A DNA stretch of 64,000 bases from Streptomyces mutomycini (lineage in GTDB: Bacteria; Actinomycetota; Actinomycetes; Streptomycetales; Streptomycetaceae). The notes beneath the pieces were generated by a model. The model had not been told where the DNA came from. It worked only from the letters and a program-made list of their open reading frames with translations, and did no database searches. The DNA lies in assembly GCF_001700505.1 (NCBI RefSeq), contig NZ_MAPV01000022.1, positions 1 through 64,000 of the forward strand, written 5' to 3'. This document shows, piece after piece, positions 21,591 to 37,820 of this stretch. Every line of letters starts with the position of its first letter. Position 1 is the stretch's first letter. Position numbers and translations under genes: made by a program.

Positions 21591-22784
21591 TCAGCCGGGC
21601 AGACAGAATTCGTGATCGGTGAGCCACTGGCCGAACCAGTCGCTCAGCGGGAACGCGGCGCACCATCCGGTCTCGTTGGGGTCCGGTGCCGGCTCCGTCG
21701 GTGCGGGCTTGCCGGGCTTGGGCGCCGTCGGCGTCCCGCTCGGGTCCGGCGCGGGTACCGACGGCCCGGCGTCCGGCAGCCCGCTCAGCATCTCCCTGAA
21801 CACCGCGGAGGACTCGGGGTTGTCGGCGCACTGCCACACCCCGTGCGGGCAGTAGTCCGTGATCGTCTGATACACCGGCTTGTGCTGGTCCATCCACTCC
21901 AGCATGCGGCGCATGTACTCGGGGTTGTCGCCGTTGCGGAACAGGCCCCACTCGGGGAACGAGATCGGCTTTCCGTGCTCGGCCGCGAAGTCGACCTGCT
22001 TGCGCAGCCCGTACGGTTCGTTCACCTGTTCGTCGAAGGTCCGCGCGGGAGGCTGGTCGTAGGAGTCCATGCCGATGATGTCCACGACGTCGTCACCCGG
22101 ATAGCACTCCGTCCATGGCACGGCGTCCCGCCCTCTGCTCGGTGCGAAGTCGAAGCGGAACTCCTGGCCGGAAACGGACCGCATCGCCGTGACGATGCGC
22201 TTCCAGTACGCCTTCCACGCGGCGGGATCGGGGCCGCACCGGTGTGTGTACGTCGTGCCGTTCATCTCCCAGCCGAGGACGATCACGGTGTCCGGGACCC
22301 CCCGCAGGACCAGGCGCTCGGCCAGTCTGCGGAAGTGCTCGTCGAACTGCCCCTCGGCGCCCGCCCGCAGCAGGCCGCGCACCTCGTCGTCGGGGACTCG
22401 CTCCTCGTTGCGCTCCAGCATCGGCGTGTTCAGTACGAACATCCGGTCCTCCGAGGCCTTGCGCCAGGCCGCCCACGAGGAGAGGAAGCCGGGACGCCCC
22501 TCGATGTTCTCCCACAGGTCGCCCGGGAGGTAGCTGTGCCCGACGCGCAGCTCTGTACCGCCGAGCCACCGCGACAGCTCTTCCATCCGCTGTACGCCCT
22601 TCGGCCCGTAGTCCAGATAGGCACCGATGGCGGTCGCCCTGTCCGGCTCCGGCGCTCCCCGGGCGGCACCCTTGCCGGCCTGGCTGTCCGGCGCGTCGTG
22701 GCCGGCGAGGACCGCGCCGCCCACGAGGAGGCAGAGCGCGGTCGCCCCGATGCCGAAATTGATGAGACGGCGCTGTGCGGGCAC
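21591..22784 (-). CDS. Secreted GH26-like glycoside hydrolase
   Basis: A 397-residue protein starting at GTG after AGGAGGAGCC. An N-terminal hydrophobic segment (residues 7-28) is a signal peptide or anchor. The TIM-barrel core (about 50-335) has the acid/base Glu173 in GWEMNG and the candidate nucleophile Glu278 in FPEWG, as in GH26 mannanase-type enzymes. IGMDSYDQ also fits. A Pro/Gly/Thr linker (about 340-375) precedes a short C-terminal WCAAFPLSDWFGQWL tail. It could trim mannan-like or exopolysaccharide material outside the cell. It lies in the same neighbourhood as the exopolysaccharide operon but is transcribed alone. Confidence 0.83.
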   Translation of the reverse strand: MPAQRRLINFGIGATALCLLVGGAVLAGHDAPDSQAGKGAARGAPEPDRATAIGAYLDYGPKGVQRMEELSRWLGGTELRVGHSYLPGDLWENIEGRPGFLSSWAAWRKASEDRMFVLNTPMLERNEERVPDDEVRGLLRAGAEGQFDEHFRRLAERLVLRGVPDTVIVLGWEMNGTTYTHRCGPDPAAWKAYWKRIVTAMRSVSGQEFRFDFAPSRGRDAVPWTECYPGDDVVDIIGMDSYDQPPARTFDEQVNEPYGLRKQVDFAAEHGKPISFPEWGLFRNGDNPEYMRRMLEWMDQHKPVYQTITDYCPHGVWQCADNPESSAVFREMLSGLPDAGPSVPAPDPSGTPTAPKPGKPAPTEPAPDPNETGWCAAFPLSDWFGQWLTDHEFCLPG

Positions 22785-24377: not shown

Positions 24378-24851
24378 ATGAATCCGACCACCGGCACGCC
24401 CAGGGAGCCGGCCGGCGCCCCGCGGCCGGCCCGCCGCGCGGTGCTGCGCACCGTCTTCACCGCGGCCGTGATCGCCGGCACAGGCGCCGCGCTCGCCCCG
24501 GTGCTTCTCGAAGGCCACGGGGCCGCAGGCCGCGCCCAGGAGCGCGACGCCGTGGGCCCCGAGCGATTCTCCGAGCTGTACAGGGGCCGCGAGATCAAGG
24601 GCACGGCCACGGCCGTCGTGGCGGCCGGCGCACAGGCCGACGCCGGAGAGGCCGGAGCCGTCACCGCGGCGCCCGGCATCGACGTCCGTGTGGACGGGAG
24701 GGCGCTGCACGTGATGCGGCGCGCCGACGGGAGCTATCTGAGTGCCGTCAACCACTACGAGTCCTTCCCGACACTCCTCGAAACGGCCCGCGCGGCGGTC
24801 GACGAACTGGGCACCGCCCAGTTGTCAGCCTCCTCCCCGCACACGATCTGA
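24378..24851 (+). CDS. melC1: MelC1, tyrosinase cofactor / copper chaperone
   Basis: A 157-residue protein with a Tat-type signal (RRAVLRTVFTAAVIAG). MelC1 proteins bind apo-tyrosinase, deliver copper and carry it out through the Tat pathway. The C-terminal half has GRALHVMRRADGSYLSAVNHYESFPTL, close to the caddie-protein core of known MelC1, including the His-rich part. The ATG follows GAAGGAGGT. The gene is 18 nt upstream of melC2, forming the usual two-gene melanin operon. Confidence 0.95.
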   Translation: MNPTTGTPREPAGAPRPARRAVLRTVFTAAVIAGTGAALAPVLLEGHGAAGRAQERDAVGPERFSELYRGREIKGTATAVVAAGAQADAGEAGAVTAAPGIDVRVDGRALHVMRRADGSYLSAVNHYESFPTLLETARAAVDELGTAQLSASSPHTI

Positions 24852-24869: not shown

Positions 24870-25730
24870 GTGTACAGCCGCAAGAATCAGCGAGACCTCA
24901 CGCGCACCGAGAAGAAACGCCTGGTCGACGCGATCCTGGAGCTCAAACGCACGGGACGCTACGACGAATTCGTCACCCAGCACCGGCAGTACTACGTCAC
25001 CGACGCCCAGAGCGGACCGCGGCCCGCCCATATGACCCCGTCGTTCTTTCCCTGGCACCGCAGGTACCTGCTGGAGTTCGAGAAGGCGCTGCAGGCCGTC
25101 GACTCCCGTGTGTCGATTCCTTACTGGGACTGGACGCGGGACAGCACGGCGAGCGCGTCCCTCTGGGCCGAGGGCTTCCTCGGTGGCAACGGAAGGCCGG
25201 GCGACCGGCAGGTGATGACCGGGCCGTTCGCCTACCGGCAGGGGAACTGGCGGATCCGTGCGGGAGTCACCGACGACCCCTTCCTGCGGCGCAACTTCGG
25301 CCGGCCCTCCGCGCCCGTCACACTTCCCGTGGCCGCGGACGTGAAGCGCGCGCTGAGCGATCCCGTGTACGACGCCGCACCCTGGAACAGCCTCAGTACC
25401 ACCGGCTTCCGCAACAGGATCGAGGGCTGGGGCATCCGAGGGGGCCGCGGTGTGGCCAACCACAACCGGGTGCACCGCTGGATCGGAGGGTCGATGGCAG
25501 GCGCGGCATCGCCCGACGACCCGGTCTTCTGGCTGCACCACGCCTTCATCGACCTGCTCTGGGCCCGCTGGCAGAAGGCACATCCGCGCTCCCGCTACCT
25601 GCCGGCCCGCGCGCTGCCTGCCGAAGACCCGCAGCGGGGCCGGATCTTCACGCTCGATCAGCCGATGCCCCCGTGGGACGTGGCTCCCTCACAGCTCATG
25701 GACCACACCCGGTACTACCGGTACGTCTGA
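24870..25730 (+). CDS. melC2: MelC2, tyrosinase
   Basis: A 286-residue type-3 copper oxidase that makes dopaquinone from tyrosine, giving melanin. All six copper ligands are present: CuA His38 (VTQH), His54 (PAH) and His63 (FPWHRR), and CuB in ANHNRVH plus FWLHH. It has no signal peptide, because it is carried out by MelC1. It starts with GTG at 24870. Length matches Streptomyces enzymes (about 273-290). The operon suggests the strain can form dark pigment. Confidence 0.96.
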   Translation: MYSRKNQRDLTRTEKKRLVDAILELKRTGRYDEFVTQHRQYYVTDAQSGPRPAHMTPSFFPWHRRYLLEFEKALQAVDSRVSIPYWDWTRDSTASASLWAEGFLGGNGRPGDRQVMTGPFAYRQGNWRIRAGVTDDPFLRRNFGRPSAPVTLPVAADVKRALSDPVYDAAPWNSLSTTGFRNRIEGWGIRGGRGVANHNRVHRWIGGSMAGAASPDDPVFWLHHAFIDLLWARWQKAHPRSRYLPARALPAEDPQRGRIFTLDQPMPPWDVAPSQLMDHTRYYRYV

Positions 25731-25767
25731 GCGGCGCCGGGCCGTGCCCGGACCGGTGCCGGCGGGA

Positions 25768-26049
25768 TCAGTGGCCGTAGCCGTACTCGCCCTTGTCCTC
25801 GTGGCTGTCCGACACGTTCGCGCAGGTGTTGCCGAACGCCGGGTTCAGCAGGGCGATCACGTTCACCGTGTTGCCGCAGACGTTGACCGGGATGTGCACG
25901 GGCACCTGGACGGCGTTGCCCGAAAGGACACCGGGGGAGTGGGCCGCGACGGCCCCCGCTCCGGAGTCGGCGGTAGCCATGCCGGCACCGCCGGCGATCA
26001 GGGCACCGGTACCGGCCATGACGGCGGCCACCTTCGAGATACGCGACAT
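25768..26049 (-). CDS. Short chaplin (hydrophobic surface protein)
   Basis: A 93-residue secreted protein: signal peptide (residues 1-26, cleaved after MATA) and one chaplin domain (about 40-78) with VPVNVCGNTVNVI and FGNTCANVS; the two Cys form the usual disulfide. Short chaplins assemble into amyloid-like rodlets on aerial hyphae and spores. A charged, His/Asp-rich tail of 15 residues (DSHEDKGEYGYGH) follows the domain, which is longer than in typical single-domain chaplins. Start ATG at 26049 with AAGGAG 5 nt away. It lies immediately downstream of the exopolysaccharide operon. Confidence 0.93.
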   Translation of the reverse strand: MSRISKVAAVMAGTGALIAGGAGMATADSGAGAVAAHSPGVLSGNAVQVPVHIPVNVCGNTVNVIALLNPAFGNTCANVSDSHEDKGEYGYGH

Positions 26050-26160
26050 CAGTTCTCCTTGAGAGGGTTGAGACCGGCTGCCGAACGTGCGGCCGGTATG
26101 CCTTGAGAACGCGAAAATCGACAGACGGTAACGGACCAACTCAAAAGTCATCATCCCGGG

Positions 26161-27324
26161 TCAACTCCGGCCGATGAACGCCAACCCGTCCGGTAGCGCG
26201 CTGAGCCGCCCCCGCCAGTCCCGCGCGGCGGGAAAGCGTGACTTCACCGACTCGGCCGCCCGGTCCCGCACGGTCAGTTGCGTCTCGCGCAGTCTCAGCA
26301 GCGGTTCGAGCGAGGAACGGGCCAGCAGCAGACGCTGATTGACCACCGGAACGGGCGCCCAGTGGTTCTTGTACTGCTCCGAGCCGCGCAGGAGACTGAG
26401 CACGCCGCGGTCCAGGCCCTGCGCCTCCCGCGCGATCTCACGCAGCAGCATCGACGAGACGTCCACCTTCCTCTCCCTGAGCCGGGGGTCGGCGCCGTAG
26501 AGGTAACCCCCCGTCAGGTGCGCCGACCGGAACGACAGGTCGGCGGCAACGACCTCGCCGTCGAGCACGAACTCCCTGACCGAGGCCTCGCCGTCGCGCA
26601 CCATCCGGCGGGCGGAGCGCACCAGATGCGCGCAGAAGCGTGGCCGCAGGTGCTCCGGGTTGACCGCTCTGCCGGCCCACTGGAGCTCGTGGAGCCGCAG
26701 CAGGTTGCCGATCGCGACCGACACCCGGTGGACCGGGGCCGTGCGGCACTCGATGCCCAGCGAGTCGATCCTGCGCAGCTTGGCCCGCGCACGCTGGGCA
26801 CGCGGACCCGGCATCCGTCCGACGAGGACGTCGATCGGCTCGGCGGGCAGCTCCATGCACGTCGAGTCGGTGCGGCTGCTCCGGGCGCCGGACCACGCCT
26901 CGAACAGCAGGTGTGCCGAGGCGCCGGGACGCACCTCCCGCAGGTCCACGACCGTGTGCGCGGCCGCCCGCCCGACCCCGTGCTCCAGCGCGGTGACGGC
27001 TGCCACGCTGTCCTCGCCGTCCACCAGGATGTCGAAGAAGTCGGAGATGGCACCGCCCATCGGGACCAGCAGAGGCATCGGACGGTGCGCGAGCATCAAC
27101 GGGACCGCGCCGATCAGACGTCCTCCCCGGCGCGCCAGTACGACGCGGAGCCGGCCGGGGGTTCCGTAGGAGAGCCACCAGGAGTGGAGCCACGCGTGAC
27201 TCTGGAACGGTGTGGCGGTGGGGCAGCGGCGATGCAGGTCACCCCACTCCGCGGCGAGGTCGGCGAAGTCCGGCAGGTCCCTGCAGAGTGTGACGGTGAG
27301 CTGCCCATTACGGTCTGTGTTCAT
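26161..27324 (-). CDS. GNAT/CelD-like (BioF2-type) acetyltransferase of the EPS operon
   Basis: A 387-residue protein with a CelD/BcsL-like (Acetyltransf_6) fold: FQSHAWLHSWWLSYGTPGRLRVVLA at the N-terminus and a second GNAT half around VAADLSFRSAHLTGGYLYGADPRLRER. It is the last gene of the eight-gene exopolysaccharide operon and overlaps the upstream chain-length gene (ATGA, 27321-27324). It most likely acylates a sugar of the polymer or its precursor in the cytoplasm. Acyl donor and acceptor are not determinable. Confidence 0.78.
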   Translation of the reverse strand: MNTDRNGQLTVTLCRDLPDFADLAAEWGDLHRRCPTATPFQSHAWLHSWWLSYGTPGRLRVVLARRGGRLIGAVPLMLAHRPMPLLVPMGGAISDFFDILVDGEDSVAAVTALEHGVGRAAAHTVVDLREVRPGASAHLLFEAWSGARSSRTDSTCMELPAEPIDVLVGRMPGPRAQRARAKLRRIDSLGIECRTAPVHRVSVAIGNLLRLHELQWAGRAVNPEHLRPRFCAHLVRSARRMVRDGEASVREFVLDGEVVAADLSFRSAHLTGGYLYGADPRLRERKVDVSSMLLREIAREAQGLDRGVLSLLRGSEQYKNHWAPVPVVNQRLLLARSSLEPLLRLRETQLTVRDRAAESVKSRFPAARDWRGRLSALPDGLAFIGRS

Positions 27325-27989
27325 CGTGCGAACTCCCTCTCGTCGGTGGTCCCGCCCTGTGCGGGGCCCGGTACCTGGGCTGTGGCGCCCCGGCGTCCGG
27401 GGCGGGGGCGGACGAGCAGGACCAGCCCGCCCACCAGCCCGCCGGCGCCGGCGCCCACAGCCGTGCCGAGCGGCACGGAGGGGGAGACGGGTTCGGCCGG
27501 CGGCACGGCGTGCGAGAACTTGATCAGCTTCACGCCGGTGTCCTTCGCCACGTGCCCGCTGCTGACGACGACTGCCTCGGTCACCGCGTTCGCGATGTCA
27601 GCGGCACGGTCCCTGTCGTCCGACGTACCGGTGACCGCGATCATGGGTGAGTCGGGGGAGGTCTCGGACCGCACATGAGTGCGCAGTTCACGCACCGGCT
27701 CCCCGGCCGCCCCCTTGGCGTAGGCCAGGGTGGCGTCGCTGGTGGCCAGCCGGCCGTACGACTGCGCGTACCCCAGCGCCGCCGCCGGATCGATGTCCTT
27801 GCCGGCGGTGACCACCGCGTAGCTGGTCGCCGCGTACTGGGGCTGGGCGAGCATGCCGTAGGACAGTCCGCAGGCCGCTCCGAGCAGGACACAGGCAGGC
27901 AGGGGCCACCAGCTGGGCCGTACGAATGCGGGGCGGAGCCGGCGGAAGTGTCCGGGGACGGCCCGCTGCTGCTCGGGAGACTCGGTCAT
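27321..27989 (-). CDS. Wzz/YveK-like polysaccharide chain-length (co-polymerase) protein
   Basis: A 222-residue protein with two membrane helices (about 25-48 and 178-200) flanking an extracytoplasmic region (QYAATSYAVVTAGKDIDPAA, then DIANAVTEAVV). This is the classic polysaccharide co-polymerase layout. The C-terminus is short and has no Walker A motif, so no tyrosine kinase is fused. It would set the chain length of the polymer together with the Wzy-like gene. It overlaps its neighbours by ATGA at both ends. Confidence 0.85.
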   Translation of the reverse strand: MTESPEQQRAVPGHFRRLRPAFVRPSWWPLPACVLLGAACGLSYGMLAQPQYAATSYAVVTAGKDIDPAAALGYAQSYGRLATSDATLAYAKGAAGEPVRELRTHVRSETSPDSPMIAVTGTSDDRDRAADIANAVTEAVVVSSGHVAKDTGVKLIKFSHAVPPAEPVSPSVPLGTAVGAGAGGLVGGLVLLVRPRPGRRGATAQVPGPAQGGTTDEREFAR

Positions 27990-29140
27990 GGGTGTGCTCT
28001 CTCGGTCGGGGGAACTGGGGCGGTGCCGACGGCCTGCGCGTAGACGTCCATGAGGCGCCGGCTGCTGAGCCTGATGTCGTAGTGGGCCACGGCGGGGGGC
28101 GGCGCCAGCCTGCGGACGCCGCTCTCCATGCGGTGCCGCAGCACGGCGGTCAGCTCGTCCGTGGGATCGGCGGCGCCGGAGGCACGTCCGATACGGGTGG
28201 CACCGGGCACGCGGCCGCCGCCCGGCAGGTCCTCGATGGCGGGGCAGGCCGCGTGCACCACGGGGAGCCCCGCGGCCAGGGCCTCCACGACGGCGAGACC
28301 GAAGGACTCCTCGCGGGACGCCGAGACGAAGGTGTCCACGGCGCCGAGCACCGCGGGGATGCCGGGAGCGGCGTCCATGGTGCCGCACTCGCCGAGGAAC
28401 GTGACACGCCCGGACACACCGAGCCGGGCGGCCAGGGCGCGCAGCGATCCGGCCTCCGGGCCGTCCCCGGCCAGCAGGAGCCGGGCGCCGGGCAGCGAGG
28501 CGACGGCGCGGATCAGCAGGTCGAAGCGTTTGCCGGGGACCATCCTGCCCACGCCGCCCACCACGAAGGCCGCGTCGGGAAGGCCCAGCGAGGCCCGTGT
28601 GGCGCGCCGTCGCACGGGGTCGAAGCGGAAGGCGGCCGCGTCGATGCCGTTGGGCACGGTATGGATACGGGCCGGCGGCACACCCCAGTCGCGCAGTCTG
28701 CCCGCGACGGTGTCGGAAACGGCGACCGTCGCCGCCCCGAGCCGCTCGGTGCGCAGATAGAGCTCCCGCGTACCACGGGTGAGGGGCCGCCCCTCGATCT
28801 CCGCGCGCCCCAGCGAATGCTCCGTCGACACGACGGTGGTCCCGGCGAGCCGCGCGGCGATCCGGCCGTAGACACACGCCCGGTAGAGGTGCGTGTGAAC
28901 GAGGTCGTACGCACCCCGGCGGATGAGGCGGGCCAGCCGGGGCACCGCGCCCAGGTCACGGTTGCTCCGCATCCCCAGGTCCCGGACACGGACGCCGTCG
29001 GCACGCAGCCCCTCCGCGACCGCTCCCGGGTTGGTGAGCGTCACGACGTCGCAGCGCACCGGCAGATGACGCAGCAGCAGCCGCAACTGCTGTTCGGCCC
29101 CGCCGACACCGAGTCCCGTGATGACGTGCAGTGCCTTCAC
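27986..29140 (-). CDS. GT4 glycosyltransferase (EPS operon)
   Basis: A 384-residue GT-B enzyme. The N-terminal domain has VITGLGVGGAEQQL. The C-terminal domain has VGRMVPGKRFDLLIRA and the E-x7-E motif SREESFGLAVVEALAAG, marking the nucleotide-sugar site of family GT4. Starts at GTG overlapping the deacetylase stop (GTGA at 29137-29140). It adds one sugar to the lipid-linked repeat unit on the cytoplasmic face. Confidence 0.92.
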   Translation of the reverse strand: MKALHVITGLGVGGAEQQLRLLLRHLPVRCDVVTLTNPGAVAEGLRADGVRVRDLGMRSNRDLGAVPRLARLIRRGAYDLVHTHLYRACVYGRIAARLAGTTVVSTEHSLGRAEIEGRPLTRGTRELYLRTERLGAATVAVSDTVAGRLRDWGVPPARIHTVPNGIDAAAFRFDPVRRRATRASLGLPDAAFVVGGVGRMVPGKRFDLLIRAVASLPGARLLLAGDGPEAGSLRALAARLGVSGRVTFLGECGTMDAAPGIPAVLGAVDTFVSASREESFGLAVVEALAAGLPVVHAACPAIEDLPGGGRVPGATRIGRASGAADPTDELTAVLRHRMESGVRRLAPPPAVAHYDIRLSSRRLMDVYAQAVGTAPVPPTERAHP

Positions 29141-29907
29141 CCGGCGTCACCCGGCCCCATGGTGCCGGCCGACCGGTACCTCAGCCGGTGCCGGATCTCC
29201 TTCGCCCGCATGCGTGCGCCTTGGTCGGCGTGGCTGATGTGCGTGCGGGGAAGGGCGAGCGGTCCTGACAGTGCGCCGGGAGACAGCGCGCAGCCGTAGG
29301 TGTATCCCGCCTCCCGTACGGACTCGGTCACCCGCAGGTCGGCCGTTCCGTACGGGTAGCAGAAGCCGGACGGCGCCTGCCCGGTGATGCGGCGCAGCGC
29401 GTCCCGGCTGCCGAGGGTCTCCCGGCGCAGTTCGTCGTCGGACAGCGCCGTCAGGTCCTGGTGGAGCATCCCGTGCGAGCCGACCTCCATCCCCGCCGCG
29501 GCGACGGTACGGATGCCCTCCTCGTTCAGCAGCGGCCGGCGCGGGCCGAGCGGATCCCAGGCGTTGGAACCACCGGGACGGCCGGGCAGGACGAACACCG
29601 TCGCGGCGCAGCCGTGGGCGAGCAGCACCGGGAGCGCCTCGTCGACGAAATCCGCGTACCCGTCGTCGAAGGTGAGCCCGACCAGCCCCCGCTTCCCGGT
29701 GGCCCAGGCGTCCAGCAGCGCCGTGACTCCCACGCCGGTCAGCCCCCGGCGCCGCAGCCAGGTCAGCTGCTGGTCCAGGCGGTCCGCGGAGACGGTGATG
29801 CCATAGGGATCGTCGGTGGGATCGCTCACCGAGTGGTAGGTCAGGATCCACGGCTGGGACCGGAGGGGGATCGTACGGGCACGGGGCGGCGAGGTGTCAG
29901 CGGCCAT
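29137..29907 (-). CDS. Polysaccharide deacetylase
   Basis: A 256-residue NodB-homology (CE4) protein. YHSVSD begins the fold, GLTFDDGYADF supplies the catalytic and metal-binding Asp pair, and SHGMLHQDL the two metal His. There is no signal peptide, which suggests action on an intracellular lipid-linked intermediate rather than on finished polymer. Start ATG at 29907; it overlaps the flippase 3' end by 11 bp. Deacetylation of an N-acetyl sugar could create a cationic polymer. Confidence 0.88.
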   Translation of the reverse strand: MAADTSPPRARTIPLRSQPWILTYHSVSDPTDDPYGITVSADRLDQQLTWLRRRGLTGVGVTALLDAWATGKRGLVGLTFDDGYADFVDEALPVLLAHGCAATVFVLPGRPGGSNAWDPLGPRRPLLNEEGIRTVAAAGMEVGSHGMLHQDLTALSDDELRRETLGSRDALRRITGQAPSGFCYPYGTADLRVTESVREAGYTYGCALSPGALSGPLALPRTHISHADQGARMRAKEIRHRLRYRSAGTMGPGDAG

Positions 29908-31528
29908 GGGGGAACCTCTGTCGGATGAGGGCCAGCAGATGAACGGCTTCCGGGGCCCGGAGTGCGAGCCCCGTGAGAAGGAATGCCGTGGGTACGAGAA
30001 GGCAGCCGGCCGCCAGACCCGGCAGCGGCCCCGGCACCAGGCCCGTGGCCAGCGCGCCGGAGGCCGCGGCGACCGCCGCGGCGGCCGCCGGCCTGGCGAG
30101 GGAGAGGGCGACCGCCCCGGGCCGTACGGCGACCGCCCGTGAGCCCAGCCCCATGAGCATGAGCACGGCGGCTGCGCTGATGCCGAGGGCGTTGGCCGCC
30201 GCGATGCCGTCGACGCCGAAGGGGCCGGCCAGGAGCAGCCCGGCCGCGGTGGTGACCAGCAGCCCGCAGCACATCGCGCCGAGCGGGTACCAGGTGGGCC
30301 GGCCGGCCGAGAAGAACGGCCTGCACAGGGCACCGACCAGCGTGTGGCCGAGCAGACCGAGCGCGTAGACCCGCATGACACCGGCCGTGGCGGCGGTGTC
30401 CGCGGCGTCGAAGGCGCCGCGCTGGAAGAGGACTTCGACGATTCCGGGCGCGCAGCCCAGCACCGTCGCCGCGCCCAGCAGCACCACCGTCCCGGCCAGG
30501 GCGAGATCACGTTCGACCCGCCGCCGGGCACCCTCCCGGTCCCCGGCGGCCATGGCCCGCGCGACGACGGGGAAGGTCACCGTGCAGATCATCATGGACA
30601 GCACCATCGGCAGCTGCGCGACCTTCTGCGCGTAGTTGAGATGGGAGATCGCCCCGTCCGGCAGGGACGAGGCGAGGAACCGCTCGACCAGGACCTGCGA
30701 CTGACGGCTCACCACGAACAGCACGACCGGGGCCAGGACCGTCGCCCCGAACAGCGCGGGACCCCGCTCCCGTGCCACCCGCTTCCCGCTCCGTCCCGGC
30801 ATCAGCCGCAGGAACGTGGGCAGCAGGGTGAGGATCATCAGCAGGCTGCCGACGGCGACCCCCGCGGCCGCGGCGCGCACACCCCAGACGGAGTGCAGCG
30901 CCAGGGTCGTGCCGATGATGCCGACGTTGTACGCGATGTAGACACCGGCCGGCGCCAGGAACCGGCCGTGCGCCCGCAGCGCCGCGCTGAAGTACCCCGT
31001 GACGCCGAAGGTGAGCACGGTGACGGCCGTCAGACGCGTGCAGTCCACCGCGAGCCGGGGATCGTCCAGTCCGGGAGCCAGGATGCCGACGGCCCACGGG
31101 GCGCCCCAGACCAGCAGCCCGCCCGCGCAGGCCAGCGAGGCGAACAGCCGGGGGAGGGTGCCGGTCACCAGGGCGCGGACCGGATCCGTCGCGTGGCCGC
31201 CGGCGGTGCGCTGTGTCAGGGCCAGGCTGAACGCCGGCACGAGCAGCAGCGCCATGCCGTCCTCGATCAGCAGCGTGGCCGCCATCTCCGGCACCGTCCA
31301 GGCGATGAGGAAGGCGTCGCTGGCATGGCTGGCACCGAAGAGCCTGGCGACGGCCTGGTCACGGACGAGCCCCAGCAGGGCGGCGACCACGGTCAGCCCC
31401 GCGGCGCCGCCCGCCGCCCTGGCCAGGAAGCGGCCGGACCGTACCTGAGCGTCCGGCGTGCAGGGTCCGGCGGCCTTCATCCCGGCGGCCGTCGTCTCCG
31501 CGGCCGGATCCGTGGCGGTCCCGCTCAC
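29897..31528 (-). CDS. MurJ/MviN-family lipid-linked oligosaccharide flippase
   Basis: A 543-residue membrane protein with about 14 helices. GGAAGLTVVAALLGLVRDQAVARLFG is the family opening, and VVSRQSQVLVERFLASSLPDGAISHLNYA holds the central charged motif. Start GTG at 31528 overlaps the ligase stop (GTGA). In an EPS operon such a MurJ-like protein most probably flips the undecaprenyl-linked repeat unit (a Wzx role); it is probably not the essential lipid II flippase. It is followed by the deacetylase. Confidence 0.88.
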   Translation of the reverse strand: MSGTATDPAAETTAAGMKAAGPCTPDAQVRSGRFLARAAGGAAGLTVVAALLGLVRDQAVARLFGASHASDAFLIAWTVPEMAATLLIEDGMALLLVPAFSLALTQRTAGGHATDPVRALVTGTLPRLFASLACAGGLLVWGAPWAVGILAPGLDDPRLAVDCTRLTAVTVLTFGVTGYFSAALRAHGRFLAPAGVYIAYNVGIIGTTLALHSVWGVRAAAAGVAVGSLLMILTLLPTFLRLMPGRSGKRVARERGPALFGATVLAPVVLFVVSRQSQVLVERFLASSLPDGAISHLNYAQKVAQLPMVLSMMICTVTFPVVARAMAAGDREGARRRVERDLALAGTVVLLGAATVLGCAPGIVEVLFQRGAFDAADTAATAGVMRVYALGLLGHTLVGALCRPFFSAGRPTWYPLGAMCCGLLVTTAAGLLLAGPFGVDGIAAANALGISAAAVLMLMGLGSRAVAVRPGAVALSLARPAAAAAVAAASGALATGLVPGPLPGLAAGCLLVPTAFLLTGLALRAPEAVHLLALIRQRFPHGR

Positions 31529-32886
31529 CCGGCACTCGTCCTCTCCGGTCCGCCGAGCGCCCACCACGCGGAGAGGCCGAGCACGATCCCGGTCAGGACG
31601 GTGGAGGGGCCGCCGATGTCCGCGTACAGGAAGTCGACCGTCTGCCAGGTCATCAGCCCGACGGCGGCGAGACCGCAGTCGACGGCCGCGGCCCCCCGGG
31701 CGCGTGCGGGCACCAGCCTGCGCACCCCGCCCGCCAGGAGCGCCGCCCATGAGCCCACCAGCGCGGTGAAGCCGATGAGGCCCTGCTCGCTGAGCACCAG
31801 CAGATACATGTTGTGAGGGGAGAGCAGCGGCTGCTTGCGGAACTCCTGTCCGGCCCCCGCCGTGTCACTCCCGGCGGAGAGCCCGATCGAGGCGTGCCCG
31901 TCCCGGTGCGCCGGAAAGCCCTTGAGGCCCACGCCGGTCGCGGGCTGCTCGCGCCACATCCCCGCCGCGGCTGCCCACATGGTGTAGCGGTCGCTGACCG
32001 ACCGGTCCGGGGCGCTGGTCACCTCCGTGATGCTGGTGAGCCGCTGCGAGACCATCTCGGACCCGACGCCGAAACCACCGACCAGCACGACTCCTGCCGC
32101 GCCGAGCACCGCCAGCGCGCGGACGGCCTGCCGGAGCCCGGTCAGCGCGATCACCGCGAGTACTCCCGCCGCCGTCGCGATCCACGCACCCCGGCTGAAG
32201 GACAGGGTGAGCGGGACGACCAGCAGCGCGGCGGTCACGGGAGCCCACGGCCTCAGCCTGCGAGGCGTGCCGGCGGGGGTGCGGAGCGCGTACGCGGCGG
32301 CCGCGACCAGGCCGTAGCCGACGACCGTGGCCATCCCCATCACATCGCCGGGCCCGAACGTGCCGACCGCGCGGATGTCCTCCCCCATGTAGGAGGCGCC
32401 GGAACCGGTGACGTACTGGTGGACACCGGTCGCGCCCTGGACGACCGCGAGCAGGACGAGCGCGCCGGCGACGGCCCGGAAACCCCAGGCGTCCCTGACC
32501 AGGAGGAGGACGGCGGCCGGCACCAGGACGAAGACCTGCAGATACCGCACGAACCCCGGCAGGGCCGCGACCGGATCCGCGGCGGTGACCGTGGCCAGGG
32601 CCAGGCCCACGGCCGGCAGCCCCAGCACGACCGCCGCGGCGGGAGTCAGCGGGCGTCGTCGCAGGAACAGCAGACGGCCCACGCAGACGAGCACCGCCGC
32701 ACCCGAGAGGAGGTCGGCAGCCGGAACGCCGAGGACGGTGCCCCCCACAGTGCCGTCGGCGGGTACCCCCACGAGCAGGACCGTCGCGATCAGCGGCAGC
32801 AACGGCCATCGGACACCCCGCCCCCCGAGGGATGTCCTCCGCCGGGTGATCGGTACGGCGGGCGCCGCGGCCTCGGTGAGTGTCAC
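31525..32886 (-). CDS. O-antigen ligase / Wzy-type polymerase
   Basis: A 453-residue membrane protein with about 11-12 helices and the large external loop of the Wzy/WaaL family. The loop carries SVSDRYTMWAAAAGMWREQPATGVGLKGFP and SPHNMYLLVLSEQGLIG, the latter with the conserved His. It begins with GTG three nt after the sugar-transferase stop. It would polymerise flipped repeat units outside the membrane or transfer them to an acceptor. Confidence 0.9.
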   Translation of the reverse strand: MTLTEAAAPAVPITRRRTSLGGRGVRWPLLPLIATVLLVGVPADGTVGGTVLGVPAADLLSGAAVLVCVGRLLFLRRRPLTPAAAVVLGLPAVGLALATVTAADPVAALPGFVRYLQVFVLVPAAVLLLVRDAWGFRAVAGALVLLAVVQGATGVHQYVTGSGASYMGEDIRAVGTFGPGDVMGMATVVGYGLVAAAAYALRTPAGTPRRLRPWAPVTAALLVVPLTLSFSRGAWIATAAGVLAVIALTGLRQAVRALAVLGAAGVVLVGGFGVGSEMVSQRLTSITEVTSAPDRSVSDRYTMWAAAAGMWREQPATGVGLKGFPAHRDGHASIGLSAGSDTAGAGQEFRKQPLLSPHNMYLLVLSEQGLIGFTALVGSWAALLAGGVRRLVPARARGAAAVDCGLAAVGLMTWQTVDFLYADIGGPSTVLTGIVLGLSAWWALGGPERTSAG

Positions 32887-32889
32887 GGT

Positions 32890-34380
32890 TCAGCTGCCTC
32901 CGAGCCGGAACACCGAGCCGGCCGTGCGCGCAAGCACGCACACGTCCTGCCACAGTGACCAGGTCTCGATGTACCGGTTGTCGAAGCGGGCCCGGTCCTC
33001 GATGGAGGTGTCACCGCGCAGCCCGTGCACCTGGGCCAGTCCCGTGATGCCGACGGGCATCCGGTGCCGGGACCGGTAGCCCGGGTGCATACGGTTGAAC
33101 TGTGCGACGAAGTAGGGGCGTTCGGGGCGTGGTCCGACCAGGCTCATGTCGCCTCGCACGACGTTCCACAGCTGGGGAAGCTCGTCGAGGGAGGTCCTGC
33201 GCAGCATCCGGCCGACGCGGCTCATGCGCCGGTCCGCCGACACGTTCCACCGGGTGGCCGACTCGTGCGCGTCGCCCGGGCGCAAGGTGCGGAACTTCAA
33301 CAGGACGAACGGCCGTCCGTGCTCGCCGATCCGCTCCTGCCGGAAGATCACGCCCGGACCGTCGCACATGCGTACGGCGAGTGCGCATGCGCCCATCACC
33401 GGGGACGCCGCGACCAGGGCTACCGTGGCCAGGACGGCGTCCATCGCCCGCTTCACGCGGTGAGCCGCCGGACGGTGCGGCCGGGGATGCAGCGAATGCG
33501 CCGCGAATCCCCATACGTGGTCCGGCCGGGCCGCCGGCCGGCAGTCCGCGACCGTCCCCTGATCGGTGATCAGCCACACGCGGCAGCCGTGGCGCGTGAA
33601 CAGAGCGAGGAGTTCCGCCCCGTCGGGCGTGGCCTCGGGCGGGGCCGTGAAGACGGCGTGCCGTACGGAGTTCTGCACGACCGCCCGTGCCGCGGCCTGC
33701 ACCGAAACGAGGACGGGCAGCGGTACTTGTCGCGTGGACGCGCCTGCCGCCTCTTCCGCGTCCGTGCCTGAGCCCACGACCCGGCCGACCGGCCGCATCC
33801 CGTAGCGCGTGTGCTCCTGCAGGACGGCGACGACCCGGCCGGCGACCGGACCGTCGCCGATCACCAGGGCGGACTGCGGATCGCGTGCGGCCGACCACAT
33901 CCGGAACCGGTGGACGAGGGCGCGTGCGCCGCAGCACACCACGGCCTGGACGCCGGACGCGCAGCCGAGCGTCACCCATCCCGCTGCACGGCTGGAGTCG
34001 TACGCGGCCACCGCCTCGGCGACGGCGTACCACTGCACCGCGGCCAGCCCGGCCAGCGCGGGCAGTTCCGCCAGGGCGGACGGGGAGAGCCCGGGCCTGT
34101 AGAGGCCCCGGTAGGCGTGCAGGAGCAACTGGACGGCCGGCAGCAGGAGGAGGACGAACGGTGGCCACCGGTCGGGGCCGGCCAGTGCCACGGCCAGGCC
34201 GAGCGCGAGCACGTCGGAGACCATCAGCGCCGCCGGTGCCCGCCGTCGAGTCGCGCCTCCGGCGGTCCGTGGGACCCGAGCGTCCTCCCCGCCGCTGCGC
34301 GGCGGGCTGATCACGGCAGCCGCACGCCGTACGGCGGTTGCCTGGGCGGCTCGCGGGGCAGGTGCACTCTCCGTCGTCAT
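32890..34380 (-). CDS. Polyprenyl glycosylphosphotransferase (initiating sugar transferase, WbaP/CpsE type)
   Basis: A 496-residue protein with four N-terminal membrane helices (about 50-150), a Rossmann-like middle domain (about 165-290) and, from about residue 308, the bacterial sugar transferase domain: KRAMDAVLA, RQERIG, KFRTL, DELPQLWNVVRGDMSLVGPRPE and a conserved C-terminus. It transfers a sugar-1-phosphate from a nucleotide sugar to undecaprenyl phosphate and so starts repeat-unit assembly. Start ATG at 34380 overlaps the preceding GT4 stop (ATGA). Confidence 0.94.
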   Translation of the reverse strand: MTTESAPAPRAAQATAVRRAAAVISPPRSGGEDARVPRTAGGATRRRAPAALMVSDVLALGLAVALAGPDRWPPFVLLLLPAVQLLLHAYRGLYRPGLSPSALAELPALAGLAAVQWYAVAEAVAAYDSSRAAGWVTLGCASGVQAVVCCGARALVHRFRMWSAARDPQSALVIGDGPVAGRVVAVLQEHTRYGMRPVGRVVGSGTDAEEAAGASTRQVPLPVLVSVQAAARAVVQNSVRHAVFTAPPEATPDGAELLALFTRHGCRVWLITDQGTVADCRPAARPDHVWGFAAHSLHPRPHRPAAHRVKRAMDAVLATVALVAASPVMGACALAVRMCDGPGVIFRQERIGEHGRPFVLLKFRTLRPGDAHESATRWNVSADRRMSRVGRMLRRTSLDELPQLWNVVRGDMSLVGPRPERPYFVAQFNRMHPGYRSRHRMPVGITGLAQVHGLRGDTSIEDRARFDNRYIETWSLWQDVCVLARTAGSVFRLGGS

Positions 34381-35552
34381 CGCTCGGTGCGCTTCCTCGT
34401 CGTGGGGCGGGACATGCCGACAAGTTCCTCGTAGAGGCACAGGACCGCCGCGGCGGTCCTCGTCACGTCGAAGACCGACCGGGCGCGGCTCTGTGCCGTG
34501 ACGCCCAGCCCGGCCCGCAGCGCCGGATCGCCCAGCAGCGCGGTCAGGGCCGCAGCAAGGGCAGGGGGGTCGTCCGGAGGCACGAGACAGTGGGACAGCT
34601 GTCCGGGCGGCAGGCTCTCCCTGGCCCCGTTGACATCGGTCAGCAGGACGGGCGTGCCGCAGGCCATGGCCTCCAGGGGGGCCAGCGCCATCCCCTCCCA
34701 GCGTGAAGGGCCAACCAGCAGGTCCGCCGCGTGGATCCAGGGCCGTACATCCGCGCTGGCCCCCGCGAACAGCACGCCGGGGGGCGCGGCGCGCCGCAGT
34801 TCGTCCCCGTACGGTCCGTCACCGACCAGAACCAGCCGTGCACCGCCCACCGCTGCCGTCCGCCAGGCTCGCAGCAGCACGTCCTGGCCCTTCTGCCGGC
34901 ACAGGCGCCCGACGCACACCACGAGCGGCACGCCGGGCGGGACCGCCTCCGGCAGCGGGAGCGAGGCGCGGGCCGACGCGGCGGCGTCCTCGCGCGCGGG
35001 CCGGAAACGGCCGAGGTCGATACCGTTGTGGATCACCGACCAGGGTGCGGTGATTCCCGCGCGCTGCCCGGCCAGGCGCTCCGACTCGCTGACGCAGAGG
35101 ATGCGGTCGCTCCACCGCGCCCCGAACCGCTCCCACGCCCTGGCGAGTCCGGCCGCCCTGCCCTCCAGGGCCTCGAACGACCAGGCGTGCGGCTGGAAGA
35201 CCGTGGGAACCCGGCCGCGTACGGCCAGGCGGCCGGCGAGCCCCGCCTTGGAGCTGTGGGCATGGATCACATCGGGAGCGCACGCGCGGACCAGACGGCC
35301 CGCCGTGAGGACCTCCCGGGCCAGCCGGGGACCGGGGGAACGCTCCGCCGGCCAGGAGCACACCCGCGCCCCCGCGGTGCGGGCCGCGGCCGCCAGCGGT
35401 CCGTCGGGCGGGCAGGCGACGACGGACCGCAGCCCTGCGCGCACCTGTGCCGCGACTAGGTCGGTCACGACCCGTGCGACTCCCCCCTCCACCGGCTGGA
35501 CCAGGTGAAGGACCGTCAGGCGACTTCCGTCGGTGAAACTCTTCTGCAGCAC
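34377..35552 (-). CDS. GT4 glycosyltransferase, first gene of EPS operon
   Basis: A 391-residue GT-B enzyme: VLHLVQPVEGGVARVVTDLV at the N-terminus, CVGRLCRQKGQDVLLRA and the E-x7-E motif SRWEGMALAPLEAMACG. The GTG at 35552 preceded by GAGAG is the preferred start, since the open frame continues 42 codons upstream without coding character. It is promoter-proximal in the eight-gene minus-strand operon whose stops and starts mostly overlap by 1-4 nt, implying one long transcript. Confidence 0.88.
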   Translation of the reverse strand: MLQKSFTDGSRLTVLHLVQPVEGGVARVVTDLVAAQVRAGLRSVVACPPDGPLAAAARTAGARVCSWPAERSPGPRLAREVLTAGRLVRACAPDVIHAHSSKAGLAGRLAVRGRVPTVFQPHAWSFEALEGRAAGLARAWERFGARWSDRILCVSESERLAGQRAGITAPWSVIHNGIDLGRFRPAREDAAASARASLPLPEAVPPGVPLVVCVGRLCRQKGQDVLLRAWRTAAVGGARLVLVGDGPYGDELRRAAPPGVLFAGASADVRPWIHAADLLVGPSRWEGMALAPLEAMACGTPVLLTDVNGARESLPPGQLSHCLVPPDDPPALAAALTALLGDPALRAGLGVTAQSRARSVFDVTRTAAAVLCLYEELVGMSRPTTRKRTER

Positions 35553-36173
35553 ACACGGCTCTCTTTCACATGCCCCCGAAGAGCCGGTCGGGTAAACACC
35601 GGCGGCGTTGGATATGGCGGCGGAGATCAAGTGGGTGAAACCGAACTGAACTGTGGCAGACCGTGCGTGGGAAAACACGTATGACTCGCGCTCGCGCCCG
35701 GTGAATTACCCTCGGTCAGGACGCCGCTCGTGGCTTCCCCGAATTCTGCGGCGTGTCAGATGAGCATGACTGCCGTTGCCCGTCACCGTGCCGCATGATG
35801 ACGTGCTGTGCGCCTCTGCTCATATGCGGAGCGAATCCCGGGGGCGTAACAGGGAACGTATCCCGATGGCCCCGGATGCGACTGGCGTTAATGGGCGGAG
35901 ATATTCCCGGAGTTGAGAGCCCGAATTGCGGCTGCCCGCGTTACGGATGCCCGGCGCGGCATTCTCCGGCCCCGTCGTCTCCGGGCGCCGCTTTACGAGC
36001 GAATCGGCCAACCGTCGCGAAACGGGCCCGGGATCCACCGTTCGCCCGATGTACTGCCGGTCCGGGCCCCGTGCCCGTAAGCGCGGTCGAAGAGGCAGTA
36101 TCGGGTACAACTCGTGGTGATCGTCCGCCCTGTGGCGGTCCGCGAACGGCCGATGAGGACTTGAGGAGAAGCG
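35553..36173. other. 620-bp spacer between divergent EPS operon and pgm
   Basis: No coding frame on either strand looks real. Base composition is visibly less G+C rich than neighbouring genes around 35580-35910. It must hold the promoters of the EPS operon (minus) and pgm (plus). At 35651-35630 the minus strand reads GTTCAGTTCGG followed by TTTCACCCACT, which resembles two 11-bp PHO-box units (GTTCACC-like); treat this as tentative. Confidence 0.5.
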
Positions 36174-37820
36174 ATGGTTCACGAACGGGCCGGGCAGCCG
36201 GCGCAGCCGGGCGACCTGGTTGACGTGGCACGGCTGGTGACGGCCTACTACACGGTCCACCCCGACCCGGCCGAGCCCGGCCAGCGTGTGGCCTTCGGTA
36301 CCTCGGGGCACCGCGGGTCGGCGCTCGCGGCGGCGTTCAACGAGGACCACATCGCCGCCACCACCCAGGCCATCTGCGACTACCGGGTACGTCAGGGCAC
36401 CGACGGGCCGCTGTTCCTCGGCGCGGACACCCACGCGTTGTCGGAACCTGCCCGGATCACGGCGGTGGAGGTCCTTGCCGCCAACGGCGCTGCCGTCCTG
36501 ATCGACAGCGACGACGGTTACACCCCCACGCCGGCCGTCTCGCACGCGATCCTGGCTCACAACCGGGACCGCACGGCCGGTCTCGCCGACGGCATCGTCG
36601 TCACGCCCTCGCACAATCCGCCCGCCGACGGCGGGTTCAAGTACAACCCGCCGCACGGCGGGCCGGCCGGCTCGGACGCCACCTCCTGGATCCAGGACCG
36701 GGCCAACGCCCTGATCGAAGGCGGTCTCAAAGAGGTCCGGCGCATCCCCTACGCCCGTGCCCTCGCCTCCGACACCACCGGGCGGCACGACTTCCTGACC
36801 GGCTACGTCGACGATCTCCCGGCAGTCCTCGACCTCGACGCCGTACGCGACGCCGGGATCCGGATCGGCGCCGATCCCCTGGGCGGCGCCTCGGTCGCGT
36901 ACTGGGGGCGGATCGCCGAGCGCCACCGGCTCGACCTCACGGTGGTCAATCCGCTCGCCGATCCCACCTGGCGGTTCATGACGCTGGACTGGGACGGGAA
37001 GATCCGGATGGACTGTTCCTCGCCCTATGCCATGGCCTCCCTGATCGAGCGGCGCGACGCGTACACCATCGCCACCGGCAACGACGCCGACGCCGACCGG
37101 CACGGCATCGTCACGCCCGACGGCGGTCTGATGAACCCCAACCACTATCTGGCCGTCGCGATCCGCTACCTCTGCTCCCACCGTGAGAACTGGCCGGCCG
37201 GCGCCGGGATCGGCAAGACCCTGGTCTCCTCCTCCATGATCGACCGGGTCGCCGCCGACCTCGGACGGCAACTGGTGGAGGTCCCGGTCGGTTTCAAGTG
37301 GTTCGTCGACGGGCTGTTCGGAGGCACCCTGGGATTCGGTGGCGAGGAGTCCGCCGGGGCGTCGTTCCTGCGCCGCGACGGCCGGGTGTGGACCACCGAC
37401 AAGGACGGCATCCTGCTCGCCCTGCTCGCCTCGGAGATCACAGCCGTCACCGGCTCCACCCCCTCCCAGCACTACGGCGAACTCACCGCCCGGTTCGGTG
37501 ACCCGGCCTACGCCCGGGTCGACGCACCGGCGACCCGCGAGCAGAAGGCGGTGCTGGCCCGGCTCTCCCCGGACCAGGTCACCGCGGACACACTGGCCGG
37601 TGAGCCGATCACCGCCGTGCTCACCGAGGCGCCGGGCAACGGCGCGGCCCTCGGAGGCCTGAAGGTCTGCACCGACAGCGCCTGGTTCGCCGCCCGCCCC
37701 TCCGGCACGGAGGACGTCTACAAGGTGTACGCGGAAAGCTTCCAGGGCGCCGAACACCTGGCCAGGGTCCAGGACGAGGCCACGGCCCTGGTCTCCGACG
37801 CCCTGGGCGCCACGGGCTGA
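36174..37820 (+). CDS. pgm: Phosphoglucomutase (alpha-D-glucose phosphate-specific)
   Basis: A 548-residue protein: catalytic Ser146 in TPSHNPP, the metal loop [10 protein letters not shown], the sugar-binding GGEESAG and the phosphate-binding [20 protein letters not shown] at 41-48 is the usual N-terminal signature. It interconverts glucose 6-phosphate and glucose 1-phosphate, giving precursor for nucleotide sugars of the divergent EPS operon as well as glycogen. Start ATG with AGGAGA six to seven nt upstream. A G+C-rich hairpin follows. Confidence 0.96.

Follow-up and report, generated by a model that had tools for sequence, protein, structure and literature searches.

A candidate exopolysaccharide operon with a probable GH26-like hydrolase partner in the chaplin region of Streptomyces mutomycini

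A tightly packed run of eight genes in Streptomyces mutomycini raises the question of what kind of polymer it builds, and whether that polymer belongs to the surface layer formed by chaplins and rodlins, the well-known sheath parts of Streptomyces. The genes fill positions 26161-35552 on the minus strand of the window, by which we mean the whole 64,000-nucleotide stretch analyzed here (contig NZ_MAPV01000022.1, positions 1 to 64,000), taken from a genome of 7.07 Mb. An earlier account made without database searches, the sequence-only reading, had described them as a complete Wzx/Wzy-type exopolysaccharide operon, an interpretation that our analysis partly supports. The reading we favor is a polymer of N-modified amino sugars on hyphae or spores that a GH26-like enzyme encoded nearby would trim. 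We place at about 0.52 the probability that the eight genes build a secreted heteropolysaccharide that is trimmed by this enzyme and lies, most likely, on hyphae or spores at sites of chaplin and rodlin assembly. That the operon is a polymer-making one is a part of this reading in which we have high confidence.

Gene content and layout of the operon

The first gene of the operon encodes a GT4 glycosyltransferase, GT4a (34377..35552, GTG start), which matches PF13439 and PF13692, its best NCBIfam match, TIGR03088, lying under cut-off. It is followed by the initiating polyprenyl-phosphate sugar-1-phosphate transferase (PHPT; 32890..34380), identified above cut-off by both PF02397 (205 bits) and TIGR03025 (332.9 bits, cut-off 295.55), and by a Wzy-like polymerase of the O-antigen ligase family (31525..32886) with nine hydrophobic segments and a PF04932 score of 70.5 bits (cut-off 31.7), a family that also includes ligases. 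A MurJ-family flippase (29897..31528), a polysaccharide de-N-acetylase without a signal peptide (29137..29907; PF01522, Polysacc_deac_1, 98.7 bits), a second GT4 enzyme, GT4b (27986..29140; PF13439, PF13692), a short Wzz-like co-polymerase without a kinase domain (27321..27989) and an N-acyltransferase of predicted FemX-like fold (26161..27324; PF13480, Acetyltransf_6, 73.3 bits) complete the set. All eight are on the minus strand, so that the genes, strand and coordinates of the sequence-only reading were confirmed, and the family matches agree with it, including the acyltransferase that it had placed in the operon.

The Wzx/Wzy label held for the pathway gene content and failed for the flippase, which is not of the Wzx (PST) family; at an E-value of 0.001 its sole match was PF03023, MurJ (199 bits). 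It also falls short of the murein flippase proper (TIGR01695, 211.6 bits against a cut-off of 235.55), and a flippase of the MurJ family may do the same job as Wzx. The Wzz-like protein has two hydrophobic segments, at residues 30-48 and 174-193, and scores 16.6 bits with PF02706 (cut-off 25.5) and 20.4 bits with TIGR01006 (cut-off 296). The earlier statement that no tyrosine kinase is fused or adjacent was borne out, as none of the eight proteins contains a Walker A motif and the six matches to the bacterial tyrosine kinase (BY-kinase) model TIGR01007 in the genome, none above cut-off, all lie off the operon contig. A second candidate polysaccharide locus in the same genome (G000:C35:21319-33389) has a PF02397 match together with weak BY-kinase-like matches.

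The junctions between the genes, in transcription order, are -4, +3, -4, -11, -4, -4 and -4 nucleotides. This corrects the count of seven tight junctions out of eight given earlier, since eight genes have seven junctions and all of them are tight, with overlaps of 4-11 bp or a single 3-nt gap. Given these overlaps, the eight genes are likely a single transcript. A scan of 25700-36200 found no sigma-70-type promoter and no T-tract terminator, which says little, the chance expectations being 0.1 and 1.2.

Modification enzymes

The absence of a signal peptide from the deacetylase was confirmed by the lack of an N-terminal hydrophobic segment. An alignment of 19 sequences shows its motifs FDDGY and SHGxxH unchanged throughout, and the solved structures closest to it in sequence are poly-GlcNAc deacetylases of the PgaB type. 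For the acyltransferase, no sequence relative was found among solved structures at an E-value of 0.1, and the fold search alone was informative. The AlphaFold2 model (predicted local distance difference test score, pLDDT, 85.7) had FemX, 7z6a, as its top fold match (E 2.4e-11), followed by aminoacyl-tRNA-dependent peptide synthases and MprF, among others. On this model, the acyltransferase could re-acylate the amine freed by the deacetylase. The possibly cationic polymer proposed by the sequence-only reading is therefore one option among others, because an acylated amine is cationic only if its acyl group is itself charged, for example an amino acid; the sugar, linkage and charge of the polymer are not readable from sequence.

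A GH26-like hydrolase beside the operon

A secreted GH26-like glycoside hydrolase is encoded on the same strand at 21591..22784, beyond the extent that had been assigned to the operon. Its PF02156 score of 25.5 bits is above the cut-off of 20.2, an N-terminal hydrophobic segment spans residues 7-29, and E173 and E278, presumably the catalytic glutamates as in the GH26 family, do not vary across alignments of 25 and 21 sequences. The best fold match of its AlphaFold2 model (pLDDT 70.5) is the GH26 enzyme 2bv9 (E 4e-10). Of 95 Streptomyces loci 18 kb or longer, 89 contain the gene, which makes it the steadiest partner of the operon, and it was found in 18 of 20 loci from other genera and from one other family. 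This conservation points to the GH26-like enzyme as a probable partner of the operon, and it would act on the operon's polymer. Most GH26-like proteins end in a proline-rich linker followed by a motif of two cysteines with tryptophans, WC...DW...W....C (positions 21591-21700 in the window), which is possibly a small surface-binding domain. A second, diverged and weaker GH26-like stretch, with one in-frame TGA, lies elsewhere in the same genome (G000:C378:11442-12413).

Conservation within and beyond Streptomyces

The PHPT was matched in 111 of 150 evenly drawn Streptomyces genomes, the window genome counted (E ≤ 1e-40). Of the 111 loci, 109 were laid out, leaving aside the window locus and one on a 6-kb contig (G114) and dropping a repeat fetch (L220). 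The denominators retain non-orthologous matches, and the hidden Markov models (HMMs) used for the layouts were built partly from the very loci scored. On this footing, the full set of eight genes is colinear in 89 of the 109 loci and in 86 of the 95 that reach at least 18 kb, which excludes a chance grouping. Among these 95, the Wzz-like protein occurs in 92, a chaplin in 74, the tyrosinase MelC2 in 38 and a rodlin in 25. In the 39 genomes without a PHPT match, the Wzy gene was found in three and the GH26-like gene in six. In the genus sample, chaplin and rodlin genes most often lie upstream of the operon and mainly on the other strand, and loci such as L207 and L195 read chaplin, MelC pair, chaplin, the eight genes, GH26, one further gene, chaplins and rodlin. 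In 49 of the 95 loci, a gene for a DUF3344 protein precedes the operon on the same strand (for example, L054:14761-15837); it is unmatched in loci of the window type.

Beyond the genus, the Wzy profile matched 114 of 150 genomes from the Streptomycetaceae, spread over six of 17 genera, and 30 of 296 genomes from the class, 25 of them from the genus of the window and five from one other family; these searches scored the best 11 and five candidates per genome, respectively, so that misses are possible. The six-gene run PHPT-Wzy-MurJ-deacetylase-GT4b-Wzz was present in all 20 loci from other genera and the other family. In many loci, genes for a weakly ATP-grasp-like protein and an oxidoreductase dependent on flavin adenine dinucleotide (FAD) come after GH26 (for example, L054:1196-3713, L249-L252 and L264), and these are unmatched in window-type loci. 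They are kept in four of the five other-family loci, the fifth being incomplete, and in one locus of the genus labeled g10, and could encode further modification enzymes.

Neighboring genes and arrangement in the window

The operon is followed, 111 bp downstream and on the same strand, by a chaplin gene (25768..26049; PF03777, 96.8 bits), one of eight ChpA-C matches in the genome. Next come, on the plus strand, the tyrosinase MelC2 (24870..25730; PF00264, 149.2 bits) and its co-factor MelC1 (24378..24851; PF06236, 95.2 bits) and, on the minus strand, a cytochrome P450 (22925..24250, start codon approximate; PF00067) and then GH26. The eight genes of the sequence-only reading stand, and the chaplin and tyrosinase neighborhood, like the GH26-like partner, extends past the limits it had set. 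The P450, found in 17 of 95 loci, is probably outside the polymer pathway. On the other side, the divergent phosphoglucomutase gene (36174..37820, plus strand; TIGR01132, 943 bits, above cut-off) is a plausible source of glucose-1-phosphate; it was found in five of 60 loci and is adjacent in the closest relatives only. Between it and the operon, at 35553-36173, related species share several conserved blocks, among them a GCGAGT stretch.

The block downstream of the operon is the mirror image of the order <GH26 <P450 MelC1 MelC2 <CHP seen in relatives such as S. chryseus (L121), L122 and L148, and S. candidus (L167) has the same relative-type order as S. chryseus without a P450 match. Records of S. 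griseus, S. anulatus and S. globisporus share the window-type arrangement. We considered and rejected the idea that chaplin, tyrosinase and GH26 had rejoined the operon independently in the clade of the window, since one inversion suffices to explain the mirrored order.

Upstream of the sheath genes, a motif derived de novo and resembling those of extracytoplasmic function (ECF) sigma factors, [CG]AACC-N14-17-xGTTG, preceded 27 of 37 rodlins and 38 of 186 chaplins, compared with one of 37 and one of 186 in shuffled sequence; the counts are partly circular, as the motif was derived from these same upstream regions, which were measured from the HMM match. The motif is perhaps a promoter class of sheath genes. 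A shared BldN-type promoter was dropped as a candidate when the motif used for it failed its positive control on chaplin and rodlin upstream regions.

Comparison with known systems

Published statements in this section and the next are taken from excerpts of the papers cited. The wps-1 cluster of Actinoplanes missouriensis, another actinomycete, resembles the operon in its Wzx/Wzy type and in having a GH26 protein, WpsE; it is transcribed during formation of the reproductive structure and needed for normal sporangia, all of its genes except wpsD being indispensable (PMC13390465). It departs from the operon in its GT2/GT26 transferases, two sulfotransferases and longer Wzz, and the excerpts do not list for it the deacetylase, acetyltransferase and bacterial sugar transferase that the operon contains (PMC13390465). 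A Pfam scan of the operon proteins gave no GT2-type match. The closest A. missouriensis cluster by gene content, a likeness that is not a claim of orthology, is wps-3, in which GT4, Wzx, Wzy, Wzz, deacetylase and BioF2-like acetyltransferase genes are clustered and transcribed during sporangium formation; it differs in its aminotransferase, monooxygenase and dioxygenase genes, and the excerpts list no GH26 or bacterial sugar transferase for it (PMC13390465). In the imp cluster of the same organism, a polymer pathway likewise adjoins a glycoside hydrolase gene, gimB; imp is required for the sporangium matrix, which the hydrolases GimA and GimB break down, and it differs from the operon in its GH5 hydrolase, three GT4 and one GT2 transferase and other membrane proteins (PMC12691653).

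The holdfast of Caulobacter is likewise made from lipid-linked oligomers that are flipped and polymerized, with modification by HfsH, a deacetylase, and HfsK, a tandem-GNAT acyltransferase (PMC5362036, PMC8449245). HfsK is a cyclic di-GMP effector whose closest solved homologue is FemX and which possibly acylates amines exposed by HfsH (PMC5362036), and by analogy the functional parallel between the operon's deacetylase and acyltransferase and the HfsH/HfsK pair would be close. The holdfast differs from the proposed product of the operon in being the polar adhesin of a Gram-negative bacterium, with dedicated anchor proteins; hfsK is not part of the hfs locus, and the excerpts mention no GH26. 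The operon has the holdfast set of deacetylase, FemX-like acyltransferase and PHPT, a resemblance of parts and not homology of systems, and the HfsE/HfsH equivalog models were far from reached (NF050817, 149.1 of 750; NF050820, 33.6 of 400). The same was true of the PgaB/IcaB equivalogs of the poly-N-acetylglucosamine (PNAG) systems Ica and Pga (TIGR03938, 56.8 of 321.9; TIGR03933, 22.7 of 248.35) and of the transferases of XrtA/PEP-CTERM exopolysaccharide systems (TIGR03088, 99.7 and 120.9 of 409.05; TIGR03013, 189.5 of 393.35).

Among the systems known from Streptomyces, that of CslA is presumably not of the Wzx/Wzy type. Like the product proposed here, the CslA/GlxA polymer and MatAB PNAG (PMC5972031) and ebosin, made by ste (PMC11078827), are extracellular polysaccharides of this genus. 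The CslA polymer helps to anchor chaplin-dependent fimbriae, and MatAB, unlike the operon, is likened to IcaADBC and is not of the Wzx/Wzy type (PMC5972031). The ste cluster, whose gene numbers reach at least ste26, is larger than the operon and includes dedicated regulator and precursor genes (PMC11078827).

The published numbers of the S. coelicolor chaplin genes are SCO2699 for chpG, SCO2705 for chpF, SCO2716 for chpA and SCO2717 for chpD (PMC5650626). Between chpF and chpA there are ten numbers, to be shared by the eight genes, GH26 and one further gene. Counting from the gene order of relatives, the operon of S. coelicolor, a laboratory strain, is probably SCO2706-SCO2713, and the pathway with its hydrolase about SCO2706-SCO2714. 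Among the papers listed by full-text searches of the open literature, none was identifiable as being on this locus, which is weak evidence of novelty as supplements and subscription papers lie outside it; SCO2706-SCO2712, SCO2714 and SCO2715 gave no result in these searches, and SCO2713 one, as a control RNA (PMC9130861).

Proposed pathway and alternatives

From gene content, motifs, predicted folds, conservation and neighborhood, we infer the enzymatic steps, the co-transcription and the developmental site of the following pathway. PHPT would load a sugar-1-phosphate onto undecaprenyl phosphate, and the two GT4 enzymes would lengthen the lipid-linked sugar, perhaps to a trisaccharide. The cytoplasmic deacetylase would expose the amine of an amino sugar, to which the FemX-fold acyltransferase would add an acyl or aminoacyl group. 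Units carried across the membrane by the MurJ-family flippase would be polymerized by the Wzy-like protein, with the short Wzz-like protein setting chain length without a tyrosine kinase. The secreted GH26-like hydrolase encoded beside the operon would cut or turn over the polymer, which in Streptomyces would most likely coat hyphae or spores at the sites of chaplin and rodlin assembly.

Several results weigh against parts of this proposal and are taken here with the alternatives. The Wzz-like call is the weakest of the family assignments, its PF02706 score being below cut-off, and the Wzy_C-family protein might be a ligase instead of a polymerase, the product then being a cell-wall-linked glycopolymer or a transferred glycan. 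PF04932 is named for the O-antigen ligase, and the weak NCBIfam matches of the Wzy-like protein, all under cut-off, include O-glycosylation ligases; we nevertheless consider this unlikely, since the near-constant Wzz-like protein and the secreted GH26 partner suggest a polymer. The GH26-like gene could also encode a plant-cell-wall mannanase that lies nearby by chance, given its Pfam match and its PDB sequence relatives, which are mostly named mannanases. That explanation is rendered quite improbable by the retention of GH26 beside the operon in Streptomyces and in other taxa, and by its scarcity both in genomes without a PHPT match and in the operon-free genomes of the tree set, where it was present in three of 29 against 21 of 22 operon-bearing ones, scored at the locus for most of the operon-bearing genomes and genome-wide for the others. 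This set of 51 genomes, on a tree of one marker gene, comprised those with a marker match among 59 searched, minus G037 and plus the window genome, and was chosen to include many operon-free genomes. The operon label changes 11 times on the tree, at least six of them on well-supported branches, so the operon has often been lost or gained. Over six independent pairs on well-supported branches, GH26 differed in the same way as the operon in 3.9, in the opposite way in 0.1 and not at all in 2.0 (means of 200 pairings), a test with too few pairs to be adequately powered (median p = 0.125).

As to the site, the operon might instead make an ordinary vegetative exopolysaccharide or capsule, serving pellet cohesion or soil attachment, with no developmental role and with the chaplin neighborhood as an inherited accident of one locus. 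Chaplins lie near the core in four of the 20 loci from other genera and the other family, all four from the genus labeled g7, leaving 16 with core and without chaplins, and they persist in all 26 operon-free Streptomyces tested (of 36), with three to 14 matches each; neither, then, needs the other. Ahead of the operon, the rodlin and chaplin motif did not occur at the first gene in any locus (0 of 107), and deletion of wps-3 gave no phenotype (PMC13390465), a null result for which we rate a sheath or spore role, and with it the best explanation, lower and the vegetative alternative higher. In the other family, the acyltransferase occurs in one of five loci and GT4a stands at the opposite end in four of five, so that the full eight-gene order belongs to the family of the window. 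We read the six-gene core with GH26 as the apparently older unit and the chaplin neighborhood as a feature of Streptomyces and g7. The frequency of chaplins and rodlins at Streptomyces loci, and the fact that the neighbors stayed together through the inversion separating the window type from its relatives, speak against a purely vegetative polymer, weakly, as both reflect shared ancestry. The requirement in A. missouriensis for wps-1 with its GH26 protein (PMC13390465) and for imp with its hydrolases (PMC12691653) also counts in favor of a developmental role. We treat the vegetative alternative as a serious one and a role for the polymer in the aerial sheath or in spores as tentative, both short of even odds. 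A bolder version of the sheath proposal, which we think improbable, is a holdfast-like adhesive of monoderms, its amino sugars deacetylated and then acylated or aminoacylated by an HfsK-like enzyme of FemX fold perhaps answering cyclic di-GMP, made where chaplin amyloid assembles. It would anchor or hydrate the sheath, and the GH26-like hydrolase would serve to release it.

The operon is thus real, complete-looking, widely conserved and of a known kind, and on present evidence it offers no new mechanism. It may provide a genetic handle on the sugars of the Streptomyces sheath, being a second polymer pathway in the chaplin region that is common in the genus, comes with its own hydrolase and has apparently not been studied.

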